Below the pieces are notes generated by a model. That model searched no databases. It saw only the letters and a program-made list of their open reading frames with translations, and was not told the DNA's origin. The position numbers and the translations under genes are program-made. Positions 27,678 to 35,748 of a stretch of 35,759 nucleotides of DNA are shown piece after piece; position 1 is the first letter of the stretch, and every line of letters starts with the position of its first letter. Source of the DNA: an uncultured Desulfomicrobium sp. (GTDB taxonomy: Bacteria > Desulfobacterota > Desulfovibrionia > Desulfovibrionales > Desulfomicrobiaceae); assembly GCA_937872685.1 (NCBI GenBank), contig CALMTS010000435.1, positions 1 to 35,759 on the forward strand, in the 5' to 3' direction.

Positions 27678-27917
27678 TCAGCCCTGTTCCATGAAGGTGA
27701 AGCGGGGCTGCATCTTTCCATCGCGCTCCACGTTTTCCAGGAACATGGATACGGGCCTGACCCACAGGCCCGTATCGTTGTAGAGGGGGCGGTAGACGAC
27801 CATGTCTTCCAGCCCTTCGCTGTGCCGGGCCACTCCCAGCACCTCGTACTCGCCGCCCTTGAAGTGCCGGTAGCGGCCCGGGCGCGGCCTGAGGCCGCCT
27901 GCATCCGGTTCAGACAT
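27678..27917 (-). CDS. DUF1653 family protein
   Basis: A 79-residue cytoplasmic protein with the DUF1653 pattern: PGRYRHFKGGEYEVLG, ARHSEGLEDMVVYRPLY and LWVRPVSMFLENV. Function is unknown for the family. AAGGAG precedes the start, and its first 8 nt overlap the end of the large GH94-like gene, so both belong to one transcript. Confidence 0.88.
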   Translation of the reverse strand: MSEPDAGGLRPRPGRYRHFKGGEYEVLGVARHSEGLEDMVVYRPLYNDTGLWVRPVSMFLENVERDGKMQPRFTFMEQG

Positions 27918-30900
27918 TGTTTTTCTCCTTTCCGCGAAAGACTTCCTTCCCGTTCATCCACACCTTGCGTACATGCAGGACTCCGTCGGCTTCCAGGACG
28001 GCCGTGTCCAGATGCGGCTGTCCGTCGCGCATGCCGATGCCGAGCAGCCCGTAGGCGGCCCAGAGCATGCGCGCCGCGGCGCCCGTATACCAGCTCCATC
28101 CGCCGCGGCCCTCGAAGCCGGGGCCGTGGAAGATGTCCGCGGGTTGCTGGTGGGGCGGCAGCCCGTAAACCTGCAGCTCTTCCGCCCGGGCGTGGGCCAG
28201 GGGCGAGATCTTGAGCCAGACCCGCAACGCGTCCCGGCGCCAGCGCGCTGCCCCGTCGGCGTCTCCGGCCTCCGACGCCCGGCTCGCCAGGGCAGTCAGG
28301 GCGTCCACCAGCCAGGATGCGCCGTGGGAATACTGGCCGCCGTTCTCGCGCACCCCGGGGGGGTAGTCGGCGATGCGTCCGGGATAGGGACGTGACTCCT
28401 CATCGAAGAACGGGGTCAGGAGCAGCACCAGGTTCTCCTTTTCCAGTCGCCTGAGGCCGGACATGAGGGCCGCTTCCCCCTTGACCGGGTCCGTGGCGCC
28501 GGAGAGCAGCGGCCAGGCGGAACAGAGGGCGTCGGCGTAATCCAGGATTTCGCCGGTGTCGGAGACGGCCCGGACGAAATGATCCCCGGTCCACATCCTG
28601 TCCAGGGCTTCGCGCAGCCGAGCCGCCCGGGACCTGTACTCCTCGGCCTTGGCCTTTCCGTATCGTTCCTCAACCAGCGGAGTGAGTGTCCGCAGCACGT
28701 CGTGCAGGAAGAAGCCGAGCCAGACGCTGGTGCCCTTGCCGCCCGTGCCCACGGCGCTCAGGCCGTCGTTCCAGTCATGGGCGCCCATGAGGGGCAGTCC
28801 GTTCTGCCCCAGTCGCGACAGGGTCAGGTCCACCCCTCGCACGCAGTGTTCCAGCAGGGTCCCCTGGTCGCGAGAGAGGCGCGGCACGAAGGCGATGCCT
28901 TCCTGGCCCCGGGGGATCGACGGACCTTCGAGGAAGGGTATGGGCTCCGCCAGGATAGACCGGTCGCCGGTGACCTCGACGTAACGGCTGGTCATGTAGG
29001 CCAGCCACAGGTGCGGGTCCGAGGCGCGGTTGCGGATGCCCAGCCCGGTGCGCCCGTCCCATGTCTGGTGCCACCATTGCAGCACGTCTCCGCGCAGGAA
29101 CTGCTGGCGCGCGTGGAGCATGATCTGGGCCCTGGCCAGACGGGGCCGCAGCATGGTCAGGGGCAGCACGTCCTGGAGTTGGTCCCGGAACCCGAAAGCT
29201 CCGCTGCGCTGGTGGGGGCCAAGGCGGCCCCAGAGGCGGGCCGTCAGGGTCTGGTAGGGCAGCCAGATGTTGACCATGCGGTCGAAAGCCGGGCTGCTCG
29301 TCTCGATGCGGATCGTTCCGAGCATGTCGCGCCACATGGCCTTCGTGCGCCTGAGGGCGGCCAGCACATCCTCGGTTCGCCGCAATGACGCCATGAGCCG
29401 GCGGCAGTCGCCCTGTTCGGGCGCCTGGCCGATGAGCACGTGCATGAAGGCATCGCCGCCGGGCGGCACGGTGATTCTCCCGGAGAGGGCCGCTACGCGG
29501 TAGCCGTCGTCGTCCTGGGACGGGTCGGGCGCGCCGTTTTCGACCATGCAGGGGTTGGAAACGGTCCGGCCGGAACCCATGAAGCGGTTCAGGCTGGTTT
29601 CCGTGGCGGTGCAGGGCAGGCTCGTGGCCACGAAAGCCCAGCCGCGCTGGAATCTGTTTTCGGGACGGCTGAAGAAAAGGACTCCGGCCTCGCGGTCCTC
29701 CTCCGCGACGATCTGGCCTACGGAATCGATGGCCACGTCGGCCAGGATGATCTGCGCGAAGAACGTCGCGTCGTAGGTCACGGGCCGCTGCCCGGCGTTG
29801 GAGATGCGCAGGAGCCGGGCCTCCATGGGCTGGTCGTGGAGGACGAAGGCCGTCATCTCGGTGGTGATGTCCCGTCTCGTCTTGCGGAACACGCAGTGGC
29901 CGAGCCCGAAGGTGACGGTCAGGTCCGCGTCCTTTTCCCGGAAGGGGATGTAGGTCGGCGACGTGACCTCGCCCGTCTCGGCTTCTCGCAGGAAGAGCAC
30001 CTGCCCGGGGTCCTGGGTGGTCATGGAGTCCGGCGCGAAGGGGGTGAGGGCGTTCTGCTGCGAGTTGCCCATGAACGAGGTGAAGGCGCCGTCGTTGGTG
30101 GCAAGCGCCCCGTACCCCAGTTCATTGACCATGAGATGGGCCCATCGGCGCGGGGTTTTCCAGCCCAGGTGCAGTTCTTCGCCGTTTTCGGAGAAATGGA
30201 AGCTGTTTTCCGGCGCGGGGTGGAGCATTTCTTCGAAGGAAGGCTCCCGGATCTCCCGCGGCTTGCGCGACGGCTTGACGGGGTGTGCATCCAGCCCCCC
30301 ATCCAGACCGAAAATGCGGCGCAGCACCCGCGATCCCTCGGCGGCTGATCCGGCGTAACCGTCCACCAGAACCGCTTCGGCCGACTCTCCGGGTTGAAGT
30401 TCGAAGCGCAGGCGCAGGCTGGCGATGGGATCGAACGTGTAGTGCAGGTCCGTGTCGTCAAGGCCGAGGGGTTTGCTGCCCAAGCCTGCAGGGTCGCGCA
30501 GGGTTCCGTCGCCGATAAAGGCGATGCGGCTGTCCTGAAAGCCGTCCAGAGAGGTTCGGTCCCTGTCCAGGATCTGCGCGGCGTGAAAATAGACCTCCGG
30601 CGAAGGCCTCGGGCCTGCGGATGCCGAACCAGGCGTCTTGAGCATACGGTTGCGGGCGAAGACGGCCTGCAGGTCCGGGACGAACCACGTGGCGACATGC
30701 TGCCGGTTGTAGAAGGGATGGCGCAGCTGTGGGTTGGGATCGTTGAGGCATATCTCCCGGTACGAGGTCAGCTCGATCCTTCGCGCGTGGCTGCCCGTGT
30801 TCGTGACGCTGATGCGGGAAATCTCGGCGGTCAGGCCTTCCGGCACGGTGACTTCGGCGATGGTCTCGATGTCCCGGCACCGGCTGGAGAGGCGGACCGA

Positions 30901-33414
30901 GAGGGCGCCGGTCCGCTCCACGCAGGTTTCGGCGTCGTCGCGCGTGATGGGGCGGAAGCCCAACGACCATGCCGGCGCGCCCTCTTCGCGCAGATAGATG
31001 AATTTTCCGGCGTTGTGGGCGCGGGAGGTGGGACGGTTGGTCAGGTCGAGTTCGGCCCCGTGCCGCGCGGAACTGAAGACCCTGCTGTACCCGCGGCCGT
31101 CGCCGGTGAGCACTGCGGTGTACACGCCGTTGCACAGGACGATCTCGTCCGCAGGGCGGAAACCGGGGCGCTGCAGGCCGCAGGCGACGCACATGTCAGC
31201 GGTCGGCTGTTTGCGGAAGCGCACCCTGACCAGGGTGATTCCCACGGCGGTTACGGCGAAGAGAACGATGATCACCGCCAGGGGCGATGCCTGCCCTTGC
31301 CCCGTTTTCTGGATGGCCTCGGCCCCGTCCCAGACGTGGGCCCAGTCCGCGCCCATGGGCAGGAAGAAGGGGATGAGAAGCGGGGCCCACGTGGCGAAGC
31401 GGCGCAGGGCTTCGGGGATGCAGCGCGTGCGCCCGGCGTGTCCCTGGAAACGGGCCAGCAGTTCGTCCAGGGCGTCGCCGCCCACGAAGGACAGGTTGAC
31501 CAGGGTGGCCACGCGCAGGCCCATGTGGTCGAACCAGATGAGGATGCGCACCCAGTCGTAGGCCAAAAGGCTCAGGAACGTCTCGATGCTCCAGCTGCGG
31601 AAGGCCTCGGGCGTGAGGGCGAAGCTCTGCCAGATGGCGGCCATGGTGCGGAAGGCGCCGTCCTGGTTGTACCATGTCGGGTCGGGGGAGATGCGCAGCA
31701 GGGAATAGATGACCGGCGCCATCCAGAGCCCCCAGCGCAGCACGCGCACGGTCTGTTCGGCGATGGCGATGACGCCCTGGCGGCTGGCCATCAGGCGCAC
31801 CGGGGCCCAGCTGCGGGCGAAGAGGGCCGTCAGGAAGAAGAAGTTGACGCTGAACAGAGGCGCGGCCAGGGACCAGTTGATGACGCCGGAGACGGATTCG
31901 TTGAAGAGGATGCGCGAGCTCCCCGAGTGGGGCCCCAGGTTCATGGCCCCCCATTTGCTGAACAGCGGGTAGATGACGTAGTCTTGCGGGTTCTGGATGT
32001 GCAGGGTGACGTAGAGGCGGAATTTGTTCAGCACGATGGCGGACTGGCTGGGGTCCACATACCAGGCAATGGCCCCGCCCACGAAGCCGCCCAGGAGCGT
32101 CCCGTTCAGATAGACCCGCCAGCTCTGCAGACGCTGACGCCTGCCGCGCAGTTTCTCCACGAAATCCATGGTCATGCTCGCACCGGCGTAGGCCATGGCG
32201 CCCATGCCCGCGCCCAGCAGGAAACGGTCGCCGGGGGCCTTGTGCATGAGGGCCTGGACCGGGACGAGATGCAGGCCCAGGCCCAGCAGCGCACCGCGCA
32301 GGTAGAGGTGCGGCCGGCAGGCGTTGCCCAGGAGGCGTGAGAAGAACGGTGGGCTGCCATCGAAGGTTTCAAGGATGGTTTTGGCCAGGGGCATGAACGC
32401 GGCGCCGACGGCCAGGTGGGTCAGCAGCGGGATGGTCAGGAGGGCTGCGTCCAGCAGGGAGGAGCCGGCCAGTCCCTGAGCCAGGAAGAGCAGGCCCAGG
32501 AAAAGGGCGCTGTACACGGCTCCCTTGCCCAGCCCTTCACGGAAATAACGGGCGCCCCAGTACCCTGCGGGCCTGCGGCCTTTGAGGGCGTCCATGAGCA
32601 GTCCGGTCAGAAGGAAGGTCTGACTCCACAGCCCGGCCTGGGCCACGGCCACGGAAGCCATGGCCGCGAGAAAGCCCGCGCCTGCGGGCAGGCTGGCCGC
32701 GGCCTGCGTCGAACCCAGGTCGGCCGCCAGCGGACTCAGGCCCGCCAGGGCGGCGCTCCCGGCCAGCAGGGCGTAGGTGCGCGGCTCGCGCAGCAGTCCG
32801 CCGATGCACAGGGCATTGAGCGTCATGGCCGCGGCGGTATTGAACGCGGCGAGAACGATCACCCGCCCGCCGAGTTCCATGGCCCGCGGAGCGAAGACTT
32901 CGTCGACGGGCCGCAGCATCTCCTGGAGCAGGTGCGGCGCCTGGAGCAGCAGAAGCCAGTTGAAGGCAAAGGGCACGGCCAGCAGGCTGGCCTGGGCCAG
33001 CAGAGAAGGGTGGCGTCCCGTCCGGGCCAGGGAAAAGGCCACGAGGAGAATCTGGGCAAGGGCCATGAAAGAGGCGCACAGCGGGCCGAGCCGGAGCAGG
33101 TCGCTCCAGCCGGCAGGGGCTTGCCAGAGGGTGATCTGCGGGCTTGCCGCCAGGGCAAGGAGGAAGGGGATTGAGAAATTTCTCAGTGCTTCGAAGACAC
33201 GTGGGAGGCGGCGGCCGGAGATCAGGGTGAGTCCTGCCGTGCAGAGCAGGCCCAGAGATCCGGCAGCTAGCGCTTTGGCCAGGGGGGCTGCGAGCAGGGC
33301 CGCGAACCGTGCCGGCTGTTCTCCGTAAATGAGGGCTGCCGCGGGAGAAAAGAGCAGCAGGGCCGCACAGAATCCAAGCCTCGAAGATACGGGCCGGGCA
33401 GGGGGTATGTTCAC
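27910..33414 (-). CDS. Large membrane protein with GH94 (NdvB C-terminal-like) module
   Basis: About 1834 residues. Residues 1-740 form a membrane region with fifteen or so hydrophobic helices and no GT84-like glycosyltransferase signature. From about 750 the protein follows the C-terminal half of cyclic beta-1,2-glucan synthases: two beta-sandwich modules (first near VYTAVLTGDGRGYSR, second near 1060-1280), then an alpha/alpha barrel with GAFGFRDQLQDVL, YVEVTGD and the DWNDG signature (D1547-G1551), which holds the GH94 phosphorylase acid. It may trim or phosphorolyse a periplasmic or exported glucan. I chose GTG 33414 with GCGGAC upstream; the open frame continues to 34191 but overlaps pncC. 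An ATG near 33531 is an alternative. Confidence 0.82.
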   Translation of the reverse strand: MNIPPARPVSSRLGFCAALLLFSPAAALIYGEQPARFAALLAAPLAKALAAGSLGLLCTAGLTLISGRRLPRVFEALRNFSIPFLLALAASPQITLWQAPAGWSDLLRLGPLCASFMALAQILLVAFSLARTGRHPSLLAQASLLAVPFAFNWLLLLQAPHLLQEMLRPVDEVFAPRAMELGGRVIVLAAFNTAAAMTLNALCIGGLLREPRTYALLAGSAALAGLSPLAADLGSTQAAASLPAGAGFLAAMASVAVAQAGLWSQTFLLTGLLMDALKGRRPAGYWGARYFREGLGKGAVYSALFLGLLFLAQGLAGSSLLDAALLTIPLLTHLAVGAAFMPLAKTILETFDGSPPFFSRLLGNACRPHLYLRGALLGLGLHLVPVQALMHKAPGDRFLLGAGMGAMAYAGASMTMDFVEKLRGRRQRLQSWRVYLNGTLLGGFVGGAIAWYVDPSQSAIVLNKFRLYVTLHIQNPQDYVIYPLFSKWGAMNLGPHSGSSRILFNESVSGVINWSLAAPLFSVNFFFLTALFARSWAPVRLMASRQGVIAIAEQTVRVLRWGLWMAPVIYSLLRISPDPTWYNQDGAFRTMAAIWQSFALTPEAFRSWSIETFLSLLAYDWVRILIWFDHMGLRVATLVNLSFVGGDALDELLARFQGHAGRTRCIPEALRRFATWAPLLIPFFLPMGADWAHVWDGAEAIQKTGQGQASPLAVIIVLFAVTAVGITLVRVRFRKQPTADMCVACGLQRPGFRPADEIVLCNGVYTAVLTGDGRGYSRVFSSARHGAELDLTNRPTSRAHNAGKFIYLREEGAPAWSLGFRPITRDDAETCVERTGALSVRLSSRCRDIETIAEVTVPEGLTAEISRISVTNTGSHARRIELTSYREICLNDPNPQLRHPFYNRQHVATWFVPDLQAVFARNRMLKTPGSASAGPRPSPEVYFHAAQILDRDRTSLDGFQDSRIAFIGDGTLRDPAGLGSKPLGLDDTDLHYTFDPIASLRLRFELQPGESAEAVLVDGYAGSAAEGSRVLRRIFGLDGGLDAHPVKPSRKPREIREPSFEEMLHPAPENSFHFSENGEELHLGWKTPRRWAHLMVNELGYGALATNDGAFTSFMGNSQQNALTPFAPDSMTTQDPGQVLFLREAETGEVTSPTYIPFREKDADLTVTFGLGHCVFRKTRRDITTEMTAFVLHDQPMEARLLRISNAGQRPVTYDATFFAQIILADVAIDSVGQIVAEEDREAGVLFFSRPENRFQRGWAFVATSLPCTATETSLNRFMGSGRTVSNPCMVENGAPDPSQDDDGYRVAALSGRITVPPGGDAFMHVLIGQAPEQGDCRRLMASLRRTEDVLAALRRTKAMWRDMLGTIRIETSSPAFDRMVNIWLPYQTLTARLWGRLGPHQRSGAFGFRDQLQDVLPLTMLRPRLARAQIMLHARQQFLRGDVLQWWHQTWDGRTGLGIRNRASDPHLWLAYMTSRYVEVTGDRSILAEPIPFLEGPSIPRGQEGIAFVPRLSRDQGTLLEHCVRGVDLTLSRLGQNGLPLMGAHDWNDGLSAVGTGGKGTSVWLGFFLHDVLRTLTPLVEERYGKAKAEEYRSRAARLREALDRMWTGDHFVRAVSDTGEILDYADALCSAWPLLSGATDPVKGEAALMSGLRRLEKENLVLLLTPFFDEESRPYPGRIADYPPGVRENGGQYSHGASWLVDALTALASRASEAGDADGAARWRRDALRVWLKISPLAHARAEELQVYGLPPHQQPADIFHGPGFEGRGGWSWYTGAAARMLWAAYGLLGIGMRDGQPHLDTAVLEADGVLHVRKVWMNGKEVFRGKEKNNV

Positions 33415-33684
33415 GAAATGTCCGCTGTGTCTAAAAGTGCAAGGGAGAACTGCAAGCCTCTGAAGCGAGGGGGAGACATCCCCGTGATTTGGCTTCTTGT
33501 CACCGCTTTGTTCCGAATTCAAGACTTGCATTGGGCCTGATTGCGCGGATACATGCCGAGGATATGGCCGGGGCCGTGCAGGGCCTGGGTTTTGTTCGCG
33601 GGCACGGACTGGAATATTTTTGCCGCCGGCTCCGGGCCGGTCTTCGCGACCGGCATGAGGACGCGGCGCGCCGAGAGGGGAAGC
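33415..33684. promoter_or_regulatory. Divergent intergenic region before pncC and the GH94-like gene
   Basis: These 270 nt separate divergent genes. A perfect 7-bp hairpin (GCCGGTC/GACCGGC, 33636-33654) lies in the presumed pncC leader and GGGG-7-CCCC near 33464-33482 is another small stem. No convincing promoter was found on either strand. Confidence 0.4.
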
Positions 33685-34161
33685 ATGGAGCTGGATATGC
33701 AAGCCACGGTCGAGGCTTTGGGTGACGTTCTGCGCGGGCGGGGATGCCGCATGGCCACGGCCGAGTCCTGCACCGGGGGGCTGGTGGCCAGTACGCTGAC
33801 CGACGTCTCCGGAAGTTCGGAGTGGTTCGAGGGCGGCGTGGTGGCGTACGACAACCGGATCAAGATGCGTCTGCTGGCGGTACCCGAGGAGGTTCTGGCA
33901 CGGCATGGCGCGGTGAGCAGGGAGTGTGTGGAGGCCATGGTCCGCGGCGTGTGCGATCTCATGAACGTCCCGGTGGGCCTGGCGGTTTCGGGCATCGCCG
34001 GACCCGGGGGCGGAACCCCGGAGAAGCCCGTGGGCACGGTCTGGATGGCATGGAGATGTTTCGACCGGATCTGGAGCCGCGTCTTTCACTTTCAGGGCGG
34101 ACGCGGACAGATCAAGCTTCAGAGTGTTCATGCCGCCATTGCGGAGCTGGCCCGGACATGA
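33685..34161 (+). CDS. pncC: Nicotinamide-nucleotide amidase (CinA C-terminal family)
   Basis: A 158-residue stand-alone CinA C-terminal domain, which deamidates NMN to NaMN in the pyridine nucleotide cycle. Motifs in order are AESCTGGLVAST, GSSEWFEGGVVAYDN, HGAVSRE and SGIAGPGGGTPEKPVGTVW. The start at 33685 has GAGGGGAA upstream; an open frame from 33541 lacks similarity. There is no N-terminal MoCF domain, so it is not full-length CinA. Confidence 0.92.
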   Translation: MELDMQATVEALGDVLRGRGCRMATAESCTGGLVASTLTDVSGSSEWFEGGVVAYDNRIKMRLLAVPEEVLARHGAVSRECVEAMVRGVCDLMNVPVGLAVSGIAGPGGGTPEKPVGTVWMAWRCFDRIWSRVFHFQGGRGQIKLQSVHAAIAELART

Positions 34162-34188
34162 AAAAACGGCGCCTCGTTCGAAGCGCCG
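34161..34188 (-). terminator. Intrinsic terminator of the 154-residue gene
   Basis: CGGCGC (34167-34172) and GCGCCG (34183-34188) pair, with TCG/CGA inside. On the minus strand a run of six T follows. It begins 35 nt after the stop at 34223. The plus side has A residues instead, so it does not act well for pncC. Confidence 0.8.
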
Positions 34189-34222
34189 CAAAAAAACGGG
34201 AGAAGTGGCCCGGAACCGGGCG

Positions 34223-34687
34223 TCAGTTCAGATAGTCGCCGCGGTTGAATTTGAATTCTTCCGTGGTGGCCAGGATGTCCAGTTCCTCGACCATGTTTTC
34301 GAGGCCTTGCGCCTGACCTGGATTCAGAGCCATGTCCGACTTGACTTCCCGGATATCCTGCCGGATGTCCGCGAGCAGGGTGTAGCCTTCGCGCAGATCG
34401 CCGTCCGCCTCACCGATGATTTGGGAATAATTTTCCCATTTGGAAAGCAGGGAGTTCATTTTGTCCATGATCGTCTGCTCTGTGGGTTTGTTCAGCATGG
34501 CGGCCTGCAAGGCCTGATCGAGCCGCACCATGGGGCCGGCCGGGGTCATGGCCGCACCCGCCTTGGCTTCGGAGCCGGAATCCAGCTCTTGGGCCAGGGC
34601 CTGCGCAAATCCGTCATCGGGACCGTTCCGGGCCTTGTTTTTTTGTTGGAGCTGCAGGGCAGCCAATTGATCCGAGGTGATTTTCAT
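34223..34687 (-). CDS. Unrecognised 154-residue protein under a sigma-54-type promoter
   Basis: A soluble, probably mostly helical protein with no family I recognise and no signal peptide. The N-terminal MKITSDQLAALQLQQKNK and FAQALAQEL are reminiscent of flagellar export or hook-length type N-termini, but this is a weak impression. The C-terminal third (VEELDILATTEEFKFNRGDYLN) looks well ordered. The start is ATG 34687: AAAGGAAGGAG lies 6 nt upstream, while ATG 34693 directly abuts that site. It is a single-gene transcript with its own -24/-12 promoter and terminator. Motility is a guess only. Confidence 0.78.
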   Translation of the reverse strand: MKITSDQLAALQLQQKNKARNGPDDGFAQALAQELDSGSEAKAGAAMTPAGPMVRLDQALQAAMLNKPTEQTIMDKMNSLLSKWENYSQIIGEADGDLREGYTLLADIRQDIREVKSDMALNPGQAQGLENMVEELDILATTEEFKFNRGDYLN

Positions 34688-34716
34688 GGCCATCTCCTTC
34701 CTTTTTCATCCTGAAG

Positions 34717-34733
34717 AAGCAAAGTCCCTGCCA
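34717..34733 (-). promoter_or_regulatory. Sigma-54-type promoter of the 154-residue gene
   Basis: The minus strand reads TGGCAGG, four bases, TTGCT: GG and GC are 10 nt apart and only one base in the -24 element differs from consensus. The predicted start near 34707 gives a 20-nt leader that contains the ribosome site. A perfect 18-bp palindrome lies 8 bp upstream. Confidence 0.75.
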
Positions 34734-34880: not shown

Positions 34881-35492
34881 ATGACATTCATTTGGGAAAC
34901 AGGAGTCCGTGAACTGCTTCGCGGCGGCCTGGTGGTCTATCCGACGGAGACTTTTTACGCCTTGGGTTGTCTGGCCACCCTGCACGCAGCCGTGGAGCGC
35001 ATCGTGGCGGTCAAGGGCAGGCCAGGAGACAAGCCTCTGCCGTTGATCATCGCTGATTGGTCCATGGCCGGACGGTACGTGCGCCTGGAAGGGACAGCCC
35101 TCGATCTGGCCCGGCGTTTCTGGCCCGGTCCCCTGTCCATTGTCGCGGACGTCGACCCCGCCGTCAGCCCTCTGGCCCGCGACGGGGAGGGACGTTCGGC
35201 CGTGCGCATGAGCCCTCATCCCATCGCCGCGCGTCTCTGCCTGGAGGCAGGAGGGCCATTGGTTTCTTCCAGCGCCAATATCAGCGGCCGCCCTCCCGTC
35301 TGCCGGCCTGCGGACGTGGACCCCGAGCTGCTGCGCGCTTCCGGGGCCGTGGTCGTGGATTCTGCGCCGTGGCCTGCCGGGGGGTTGCCTTCAACCCTGG
35401 TGGCGGTCGAGGACAGGATCGTCCGCGTGCTGCGTGTCGGGGCCGTGCCTGCCCGTGACATCGCGGCCTGCGGATTCGAGGTGCGCGAGTAG
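34881..35492 (+). CDS. tsaC: Threonylcarbamoyl-AMP synthase (Sua5/YciO/YrdC family)
   Basis: A 203-residue enzyme for the t6A37 modification of ANN-decoding tRNAs. Motifs are VYPTETFYALGC (about residues 18-29), KGRPGDKPLPLII, SSSANISGRP and PSTLVAV. The start at 34881 has a G-rich AGGGGGG upstream; an open frame from 34785 adds unrelated residues. There is no C-terminal Sua5 domain, so the TsaC form is favoured, although YciO-type paralogues of unknown function exist. Confidence 0.85.
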   Translation: MTFIWETGVRELLRGGLVVYPTETFYALGCLATLHAAVERIVAVKGRPGDKPLPLIIADWSMAGRYVRLEGTALDLARRFWPGPLSIVADVDPAVSPLARDGEGRSAVRMSPHPIAARLCLEAGGPLVSSSANISGRPPVCRPADVDPELLRASGAVVVDSAPWPAGGLPSTLVAVEDRIVRVLRVGAVPARDIAACGFEVRE

Positions 35493-35562
35493 TACAAAAA
35501 ATTTTCTTGCCGATGGGCCAGTCCGGGGCTTGCCGATTGGGTGGTTAAAAAAATTGAATTTT

Positions 35563-35596: not shown

Positions 35597-35631
35597 AAAA
35601 TTAATTATAACATGGATTTGTAATTAATTTT
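35597..35631. promoter_or_regulatory. A+T-rich inverted repeat upstream of sigma-54-type promoter
   Basis: AAAATTAATTA (35597-35607) and TAATTAATTTT (35621-35631) are perfect 11-bp arms with a 13-nt spacer; their centres are 24 bp apart. They lie 28-62 bp upstream of the -24 element. Possible roles are binding of an activator or of a bending protein such as IHF. Confidence 0.55.
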
Positions 35632-35657
35632 AAGAAAATTTAGTGTTGTTTTTTGTT

Positions 35658-35673
35658 TGGCCCGCTCCTTGCT
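35658..35673 (+). promoter_or_regulatory. Sigma-54-type promoter at the right end
   Basis: The sequence TGGCCCG-CTCC-TTGCT has GG and GC exactly 10 nt apart and matches the -24/-12 consensus except at two bases of the -24 element. The predicted start is near 35684. No coding region begins within the window after it. Confidence 0.72.
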
Positions 35674-35683
35674 AATAGCTAAA

Positions 35684-35745
35684 TAACTTCCTCTTTTTGC
35701 CAAAATCGGCTCCCGTACCGTCAGGTGCGGGGGCCGATTTTGTTT
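35684..35745 (+). ncRNA. Candidate short sigma-54-dependent RNA or terminated leader
   Basis: From the predicted start to the terminator the transcript is about 60 nt. Its unpaired 5' part contains CTTCCTCTTTTT (35687-35698), complementary to ribosome-binding sites, followed by the terminator hairpin, the layout of a small regulatory RNA. It could equally be the attenuated leader of a gene beyond the right edge. Confidence 0.35.
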
Positions 35746-35748
35746 GGG
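35702..35748 (+). terminator. Strong intrinsic terminator at the right end
   Basis: AAAATCGGC (35702-35710) pairs with GCCGATTTT (35733-35741), with CCG/CGG and ACC/GGT inside. TGTTT follows on the plus strand. The minus side has no T-run beyond the stem, so plus is the likely direction. Confidence 0.75.

Follow-up and report, generated by a model that had tools for sequence, protein, structure and literature searches.

A conserved family of predicted sigma-54-dependent small RNAs in the Desulfovibrionales and its putative link to the major porin

The locus and its features

The window analyzed here is a stretch of 35,759 nucleotides from an uncultured Desulfomicrobium sp. and makes up an entire contig (G000:C435) from a 506-contig assembly. 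Its end falls shortly after a predicted small RNA, which is preceded by a -24/-12 promoter, two dyads, and the tsaC gene (Table 1), the start of which was assigned by inspection to the ATG at 34881. In relatives the gene order is tsaC - RNA - NUDIX - glgA, and the presence of glgA 362 bases into another contig of the same genome is consistent with this order. Elsewhere in the window, a very long open frame on the minus strand (27910-34191, 2093 aa from a TTG start) resembles a multi-domain glycan synthase/phosphorylase.

Table 1. Features of the RNA locus, in window coordinates
Feature	Position	Strand	Remarks
tsaC (L-threonylcarbamoyladenylate synthase)	34881..35492	+	TIGR00057, E 4e-40; conserved upstream neighbor
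Distal putative activator-site dyad GTACAAAAAATTTTCT	35492..35507	.	6/8 to GTnnAAnnnnTTnnAC; 52 bp from proximal dyad
Proximal putative activator-site dyad GTTAAAAAAATTGAAT	35544..35559	.	7/8 to GTnnAAnnnnTTnnAC; upstream conservation
A+T-rich inverted repeat, 13/14	35597..35631	.	arms 35597-35610/35618-35631; not conserved, not counted as functional
Sigma-54 (-24/-12) promoter TGGCCCGCTCCTTGC	35658..35672	+	conserved at genus and order level
Predicted small RNA, ~62 nt	35684..35747	+	predicted 5' end ~35684, 3' end ~35743-35747
Single-stranded 5' pairing region AACTTCCTCTTTTTGCC	35685..35701	+	C/U-rich, invariant in genus
Intrinsic terminator hairpin	35701..35742	+	19 pairs, 4-nt loop; arms 35701-35719/35724-35742

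A preliminary description of this DNA proposed a small terminated transcript running from about 35684 to about 35745, and nearly the same ends are predicted here (about 35684 and about 35746). The locus is matched by the covariance model R2, described below, with a score of 67.8 bits (E 7.8e-14). The terminator, called strong in that description, is far stronger than shuffled sequences of the same region (MFE -36.7 kcal/mol, z = -7.0), none of 200 shuffles being equally good, and it is followed by the tail UUUUGUUU, with a short, interrupted U tract. The 5' region AACTTCCTCTTTTTGCC is unpaired in the predicted fold except for its last base, and all 17 nt are identical in the 15 of 15 genus sequences of the alignment, while the flanking intergenic DNA is otherwise poorly conserved.

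The pattern TGGCNNGN4TTGC occurs twice in the window, where 0.61 occurrences would be expected by chance, and the promoter TGGCCCGCTCCTTGC is one of them. A single local match of this kind says little by itself. The promoter was accepted because it is conserved across relatives: TGGCC..TTGC lies 13-15 nt ahead of CTTCCTC in 15/15 same-genus loci, and a correctly placed sigma-54 promoter is found at 57 of the 63 R2 matches that were fetched, the promoter lying outside the model. The well-spaced -24/-12 element described earlier is thus kept at both levels. A second sigma-54 promoter, TGGCAGGGACTTTGC, lies on the minus strand at 34719-34733 and is kept in 11 same-genus loci; the gene behind it (34226-34693, product beginning MAMKITSDQLAAL) is small and has no assigned function.

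The dyads were found by aligning the upstream regions of single genera, which gave the 16-mer consensus GTnnAAnnnnTTnnAC, scored over 8 positions. RNA loci carry such a dyad at 7/8 or better in 32/32 cases and at 8/8 in 25/32, compared with 8% and 0.8% in shuffled DNA. There are usually two, with a spacing of 52-53 bp, and they lie about 110-240 bp ahead of the start; in the window the first base of the distal one is also the final base of the stop codon of tsaC. Within 2.4 Mb of sequence, strict pairs spaced by 51-53 bp occur at RNA loci and upstream of one porin gene. The sigma-54 promoter and the distance of the dyads suggest that the protein bound is an enhancer-binding protein, and a single such protein would occupy both dyads. 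The A+T-rich inverted repeat nearer the promoter, originally regarded as perfect, matches at 13 of 14 positions and is unconserved in relatives, which rules it out as the activator site.

Distribution and covariation of the RNA family

The distribution of the RNA was probed using a combination of sequence and covariance searches. A 280-base query against 40 relatives aligned in most genomes of the genus over about 90-110 nt, with 80-88% identity. The covariance model R1, built from 14 genus sequences, recovered full-length homologues in other families, nearly all of which have GG-N10-GC 10-18 nt upstream and most of which have tsaC upstream. The model R2, built from 41 sequences, has matches in 110 of 348 Desulfovibrionales genomes and in 40 of 59 genera, with tsaC upstream at 44 of the 63 matches fetched; these counts include related genomes, whose loci are not independent of each other. 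The other 238 genomes have no R2 match at E <= 1e-3, which reflects either loss of the RNA family or an overly strict model.

Compensatory changes in the stem, named as a check in the preliminary description, are present: in the 41 sequences, both partners have changed in 12 of the 14 outer pairs, and the share of paired cells is 97.4%, compared with 82% in shuffled and at most 58% in slid alignments. Several genomes contain two or three RNA units in tandem, and each unit generally has a promoter to itself. Tandem copies of this kind, mostly with separate promoters, are found at L148, L153, L154, L159, L191, L212, L231, and L244.

Searches of Rfam at gathering and relaxed thresholds returned nothing credible for the RNA, and no family fits. 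A phylum-wide covariance search beyond the order gave weak matches only, which, taken as a set, are mostly hairpin-driven. In an exact-seed scan of genome contigs, the matches outside Desulfomicrobium-like genomes do not have the combination of hairpin and promoter. The 18-mer AACTTCCTCTTTTTGCCA also opens an interspersed hairpin repeat (CACGGAG...CTCCGTG) in Endozoicomonas and in a genome labelled Salinisphaera (L027, L028, L031-L033, L036, L041, L046, L051, L052, L054, L055, L057, L062-L066, and L069-L072), which is unrelated to the RNA.

Sequence comparison confirms a conserved family of predicted RNAs of about 62 nt with a sigma-54 promoter across the Desulfovibrionales. Its members resemble sigma-54 small RNAs in having a GG-N10-GC promoter at the right distance from the transcript, a conserved structure with compensatory changes and a terminator, and paired dyads about 100 bp or more upstream, where a protein would bind. 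The proposal of an activator-controlled sigma-54 small RNA is consequently strongly supported by the order-wide conservation, the stem covariation, the recurrence of the promoter, and the paired dyads.

The porin as predicted target and competing readings

Complementarity to GAGGAAG alone is common, and three separate target tests were therefore applied. Candidate targets were ranked in 1.2 Mb of sequence sampled in stretches from a same-genus genome (G011) and comprising 957 genes with starts called by a simple script. The start region of a porin gene ranks first of the 957 (GCAAAAGGAGGAAG, -22.2 kcal/mol). The encoded protein matches NF033939, outer membrane homotrimeric porin (E 9e-134), the family to which DVU0799 of D. 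vulgaris is presumably also assigned. The paper on DVU0799 as the D. vulgaris major porin (PMC5686591) makes no mention of small-RNA control of the porin. The match to the porin is moderate in most Desulfomicrobium genomes, at about -15 kcal/mol with one mismatch, and the porin found in the genome of the window is a diverged copy that forms 11 pairs with the RNA and has no dyad.

In other families, the porin start regions track the RNA of their own lineage. In G217, the RNA AUCCUUCUUUGUUUUGC is complementary to the porin leader GCAAAACAAAGAAGGA over 16 nt without GGAGG, and the RNA/porin pairs of G029 and G026 resemble this pattern. Pairs drawn from the same genome have a mean of -20.6 kcal/mol, compared with -17.3 for swapped pairs (p = 5e-5 for 28 genomes and 1e-4 for 10 distinct seeds), in tests from which shared ancestry is not fully removed. 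As porin start codon, the one pairing best with the genome's own RNA was used; in nearly all cases this is also the obvious codon ahead of the signal peptide. The match to the start of porin translation is kept by co-variation, a property that likens this RNA to MicF and RybB. The C/U-rich unpaired 5' part, first noticed as complementary to ribosome-binding sites in general, thus has a co-evolving match to the porin start region.

The upstream regions of the porin genes provide a second line of evidence. The dyad is present at 7/8 or better in 23 of 28 porin loci and at 8/8 in 19 of 28, and a second dyad lies exactly 17 bp away at 16 of 28. Among 901 other upstream regions of G011, used as a control, 59 reach 7/8, none reaches 8/8, and none has the 17-bp pair. 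With few exceptions, the porin upstream regions have no sigma-54 promoter. In G023 (L385, 1385-1453), the porin gene is immediately preceded by the 53-bp dyad pair typical of RNA loci, which replaces the 17-bp arrangement. The shared predicted operator and the co-evolving complementarity are independent arguments tying the RNA to the porin. The major trimeric porin is most likely its target and is the best supported of the candidates, and porin translation would most likely be shut off by pairing of the RNA at the ribosome-binding site.

It was also considered whether the sigma-54 small RNA regulates many messages through generic anti-Shine-Dalgarno pairing, with the porin as just one target among them or an incidental one. 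The CUUCCUC core can pair with any strong ribosome-binding site of the GAGGAAG type, and other matches exist. A 12-nt match to the start of Pal recurs in the genus; Pal as the main target was rejected, as the difference between own and swapped pairs is not significant (p 0.12 on the distinct-seed set). In the genome of the window, the start of pspC forms 19 contiguous pairs with the RNA (one G-U, -30.9 kcal/mol); this match lies in a pspF-pspABC locus (L076, G000:C184, near 1483-1520 on the minus strand). No pspC start was recognized among the same-genus matches whose context was inspected, and pspC is consequently regarded as a possible additional target specific to the lineage. When compared with controls that retain the CUUCCUC core, the predicted targets show no excess of secreted proteins as a class, a result that would fit a generic regulator and owing to which targeting of the class is not claimed. 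However, the predicted pairing with the porin reaches past the core, tracks lineage changes, and in one lineage involves no GGAGG, and the porin promoter has the operator of the RNA itself. A generic regulator therefore appears unlikely.

The preliminary description offered as its alternative that the transcript is an attenuator or leader gating a gene beyond the contig edge. The terminator does lie near the promoter, and the gene that follows in Desulfomicrobium (NUDIX, then glgA) is co-directional. In other families, however, the next gene is heptosyltransferase-like and convergent, on the opposite strand, and the downstream gene varies (it is rubrerythrin-like in G015). Attenuation is rejected, and in a large part of the order it is already refuted, because the next gene is convergent in several families and many genomes and the downstream genes differ; the existence of tandem copies of the whole unit and the lack of any visible alternative antiterminator also argue against it, leaving it a very small probability. 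It is just as improbable that the hairpin, which lies 3' of tsaC on the same strand, is merely the tsaC terminator beside a chance -24/-12 match with no independent transcript, as the promoter, its spacing to the start, the 5' part, and the dyads are all kept across families and duplicate units have their own promoters.

Proposed circuit and comparison with known systems

The features above suggest a mechanism in which the RNA acts as a trans-acting antisense RNA against the porin. First, an enhancer-binding protein would bind the two GTnnAAnnnnTTnnAC dyads about 52 bp apart and activate the -24/-12 promoter. The product of about 62 nt would end at its own terminator hairpin, leaving the 5' part (CUUCCUYCUUUUGC and variants) free to pair with the Shine-Dalgarno region of the porin mRNA and perhaps of a few other messages. 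This pairing would cover the Shine-Dalgarno sequence and repress the porin by blocking ribosome loading without Hfq. Hfq was not found in 31 of 31 genomes, in a search that detected its positive controls, suggesting that pairing would be unaided or would proceed via another chaperone. Finally, since the porin gene is preceded by the same dyads, its transcription is probably also under direct control of the regulator, in a feed-forward loop; the arrangement suggests a single regulator for the anti-porin RNA and for transcription of the porin. At the porin promoter this regulator may repress or activate, and repression would yield a coherent feed-forward shut-off.

The explanation as a whole, a sigma-54-driven antisense RNA acting in trans on the porin under a regulator shared through the dyads, is considered probable on the basis of these comparisons. 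The broader version is put forward tentatively, with somewhat less than even expectation: an order-wide, Hfq-independent circuit in which one envelope-sensing sigma-54 enhancer-binding protein would use dyads 52 bp apart at the RNA and 17 bp apart at the porin to turn the porin off at both transcription and translation. Envelope stress as the physiological signal is a guess, made because of the porin, the pspC match in the genome of the window, and DVU1419 of D. vulgaris, a regulator that is annotated with envelope stress and controls an ncRNA (PMC4641369).

Among the closest known systems are those of D. vulgaris Hildenborough, a member of the same order, in which four sigma-54-dependent ncRNAs are described as controlled by DVU0653, DVU0679, DVU1419, and DVU2359 (PMC4641369; one also in PMC3333781). 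As proposed for the RNA described here, these have a sigma-54 promoter and an enhancer-binding protein, and the available text of both papers gives no target for them. The existence of the RNA in one species may already be noted among these ncRNAs. A search for its family, structure, operator, and target did not find them in the papers covered.

MicF, RybB, and MicA of enterobacteria are short RNAs that pair with the translation starts of porin mRNAs, the kind of target predicted here. These RNAs require Hfq and are under the control of OmpR/SoxS/Rob or sigma-E, whereas the RNA described here would be driven by sigma-54 in a clade without detected Hfq. The same wiring of sigma-54 and an enhancer-binding protein is found for Qrr of Vibrio and GlmY of Enterobacteriaceae, and Qrr is multi-copy, like the two to three tandem copies seen here. 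Sigma-54 dependence is described for QseF-glmY in PMC6075780. Qrr and GlmY differ from the present RNA in sequence, length, and targets; the RNA has no Rfam match, and no sequence relationship to MicF/RybB/MicA or Qrr/GlmY was detected. If the proposed circuit is correct, it would provide a defined small RNA family in a clade without detected Hfq, with a very abundant outer-membrane protein as its predicted direct target and with the operator of the controlling activator defined. Every step can be tested in genetically tractable Desulfovibrionales, and the circuit would represent a third solution to porin shut-off beside those of the OmpR/MicF and sigma-E/RybB types.
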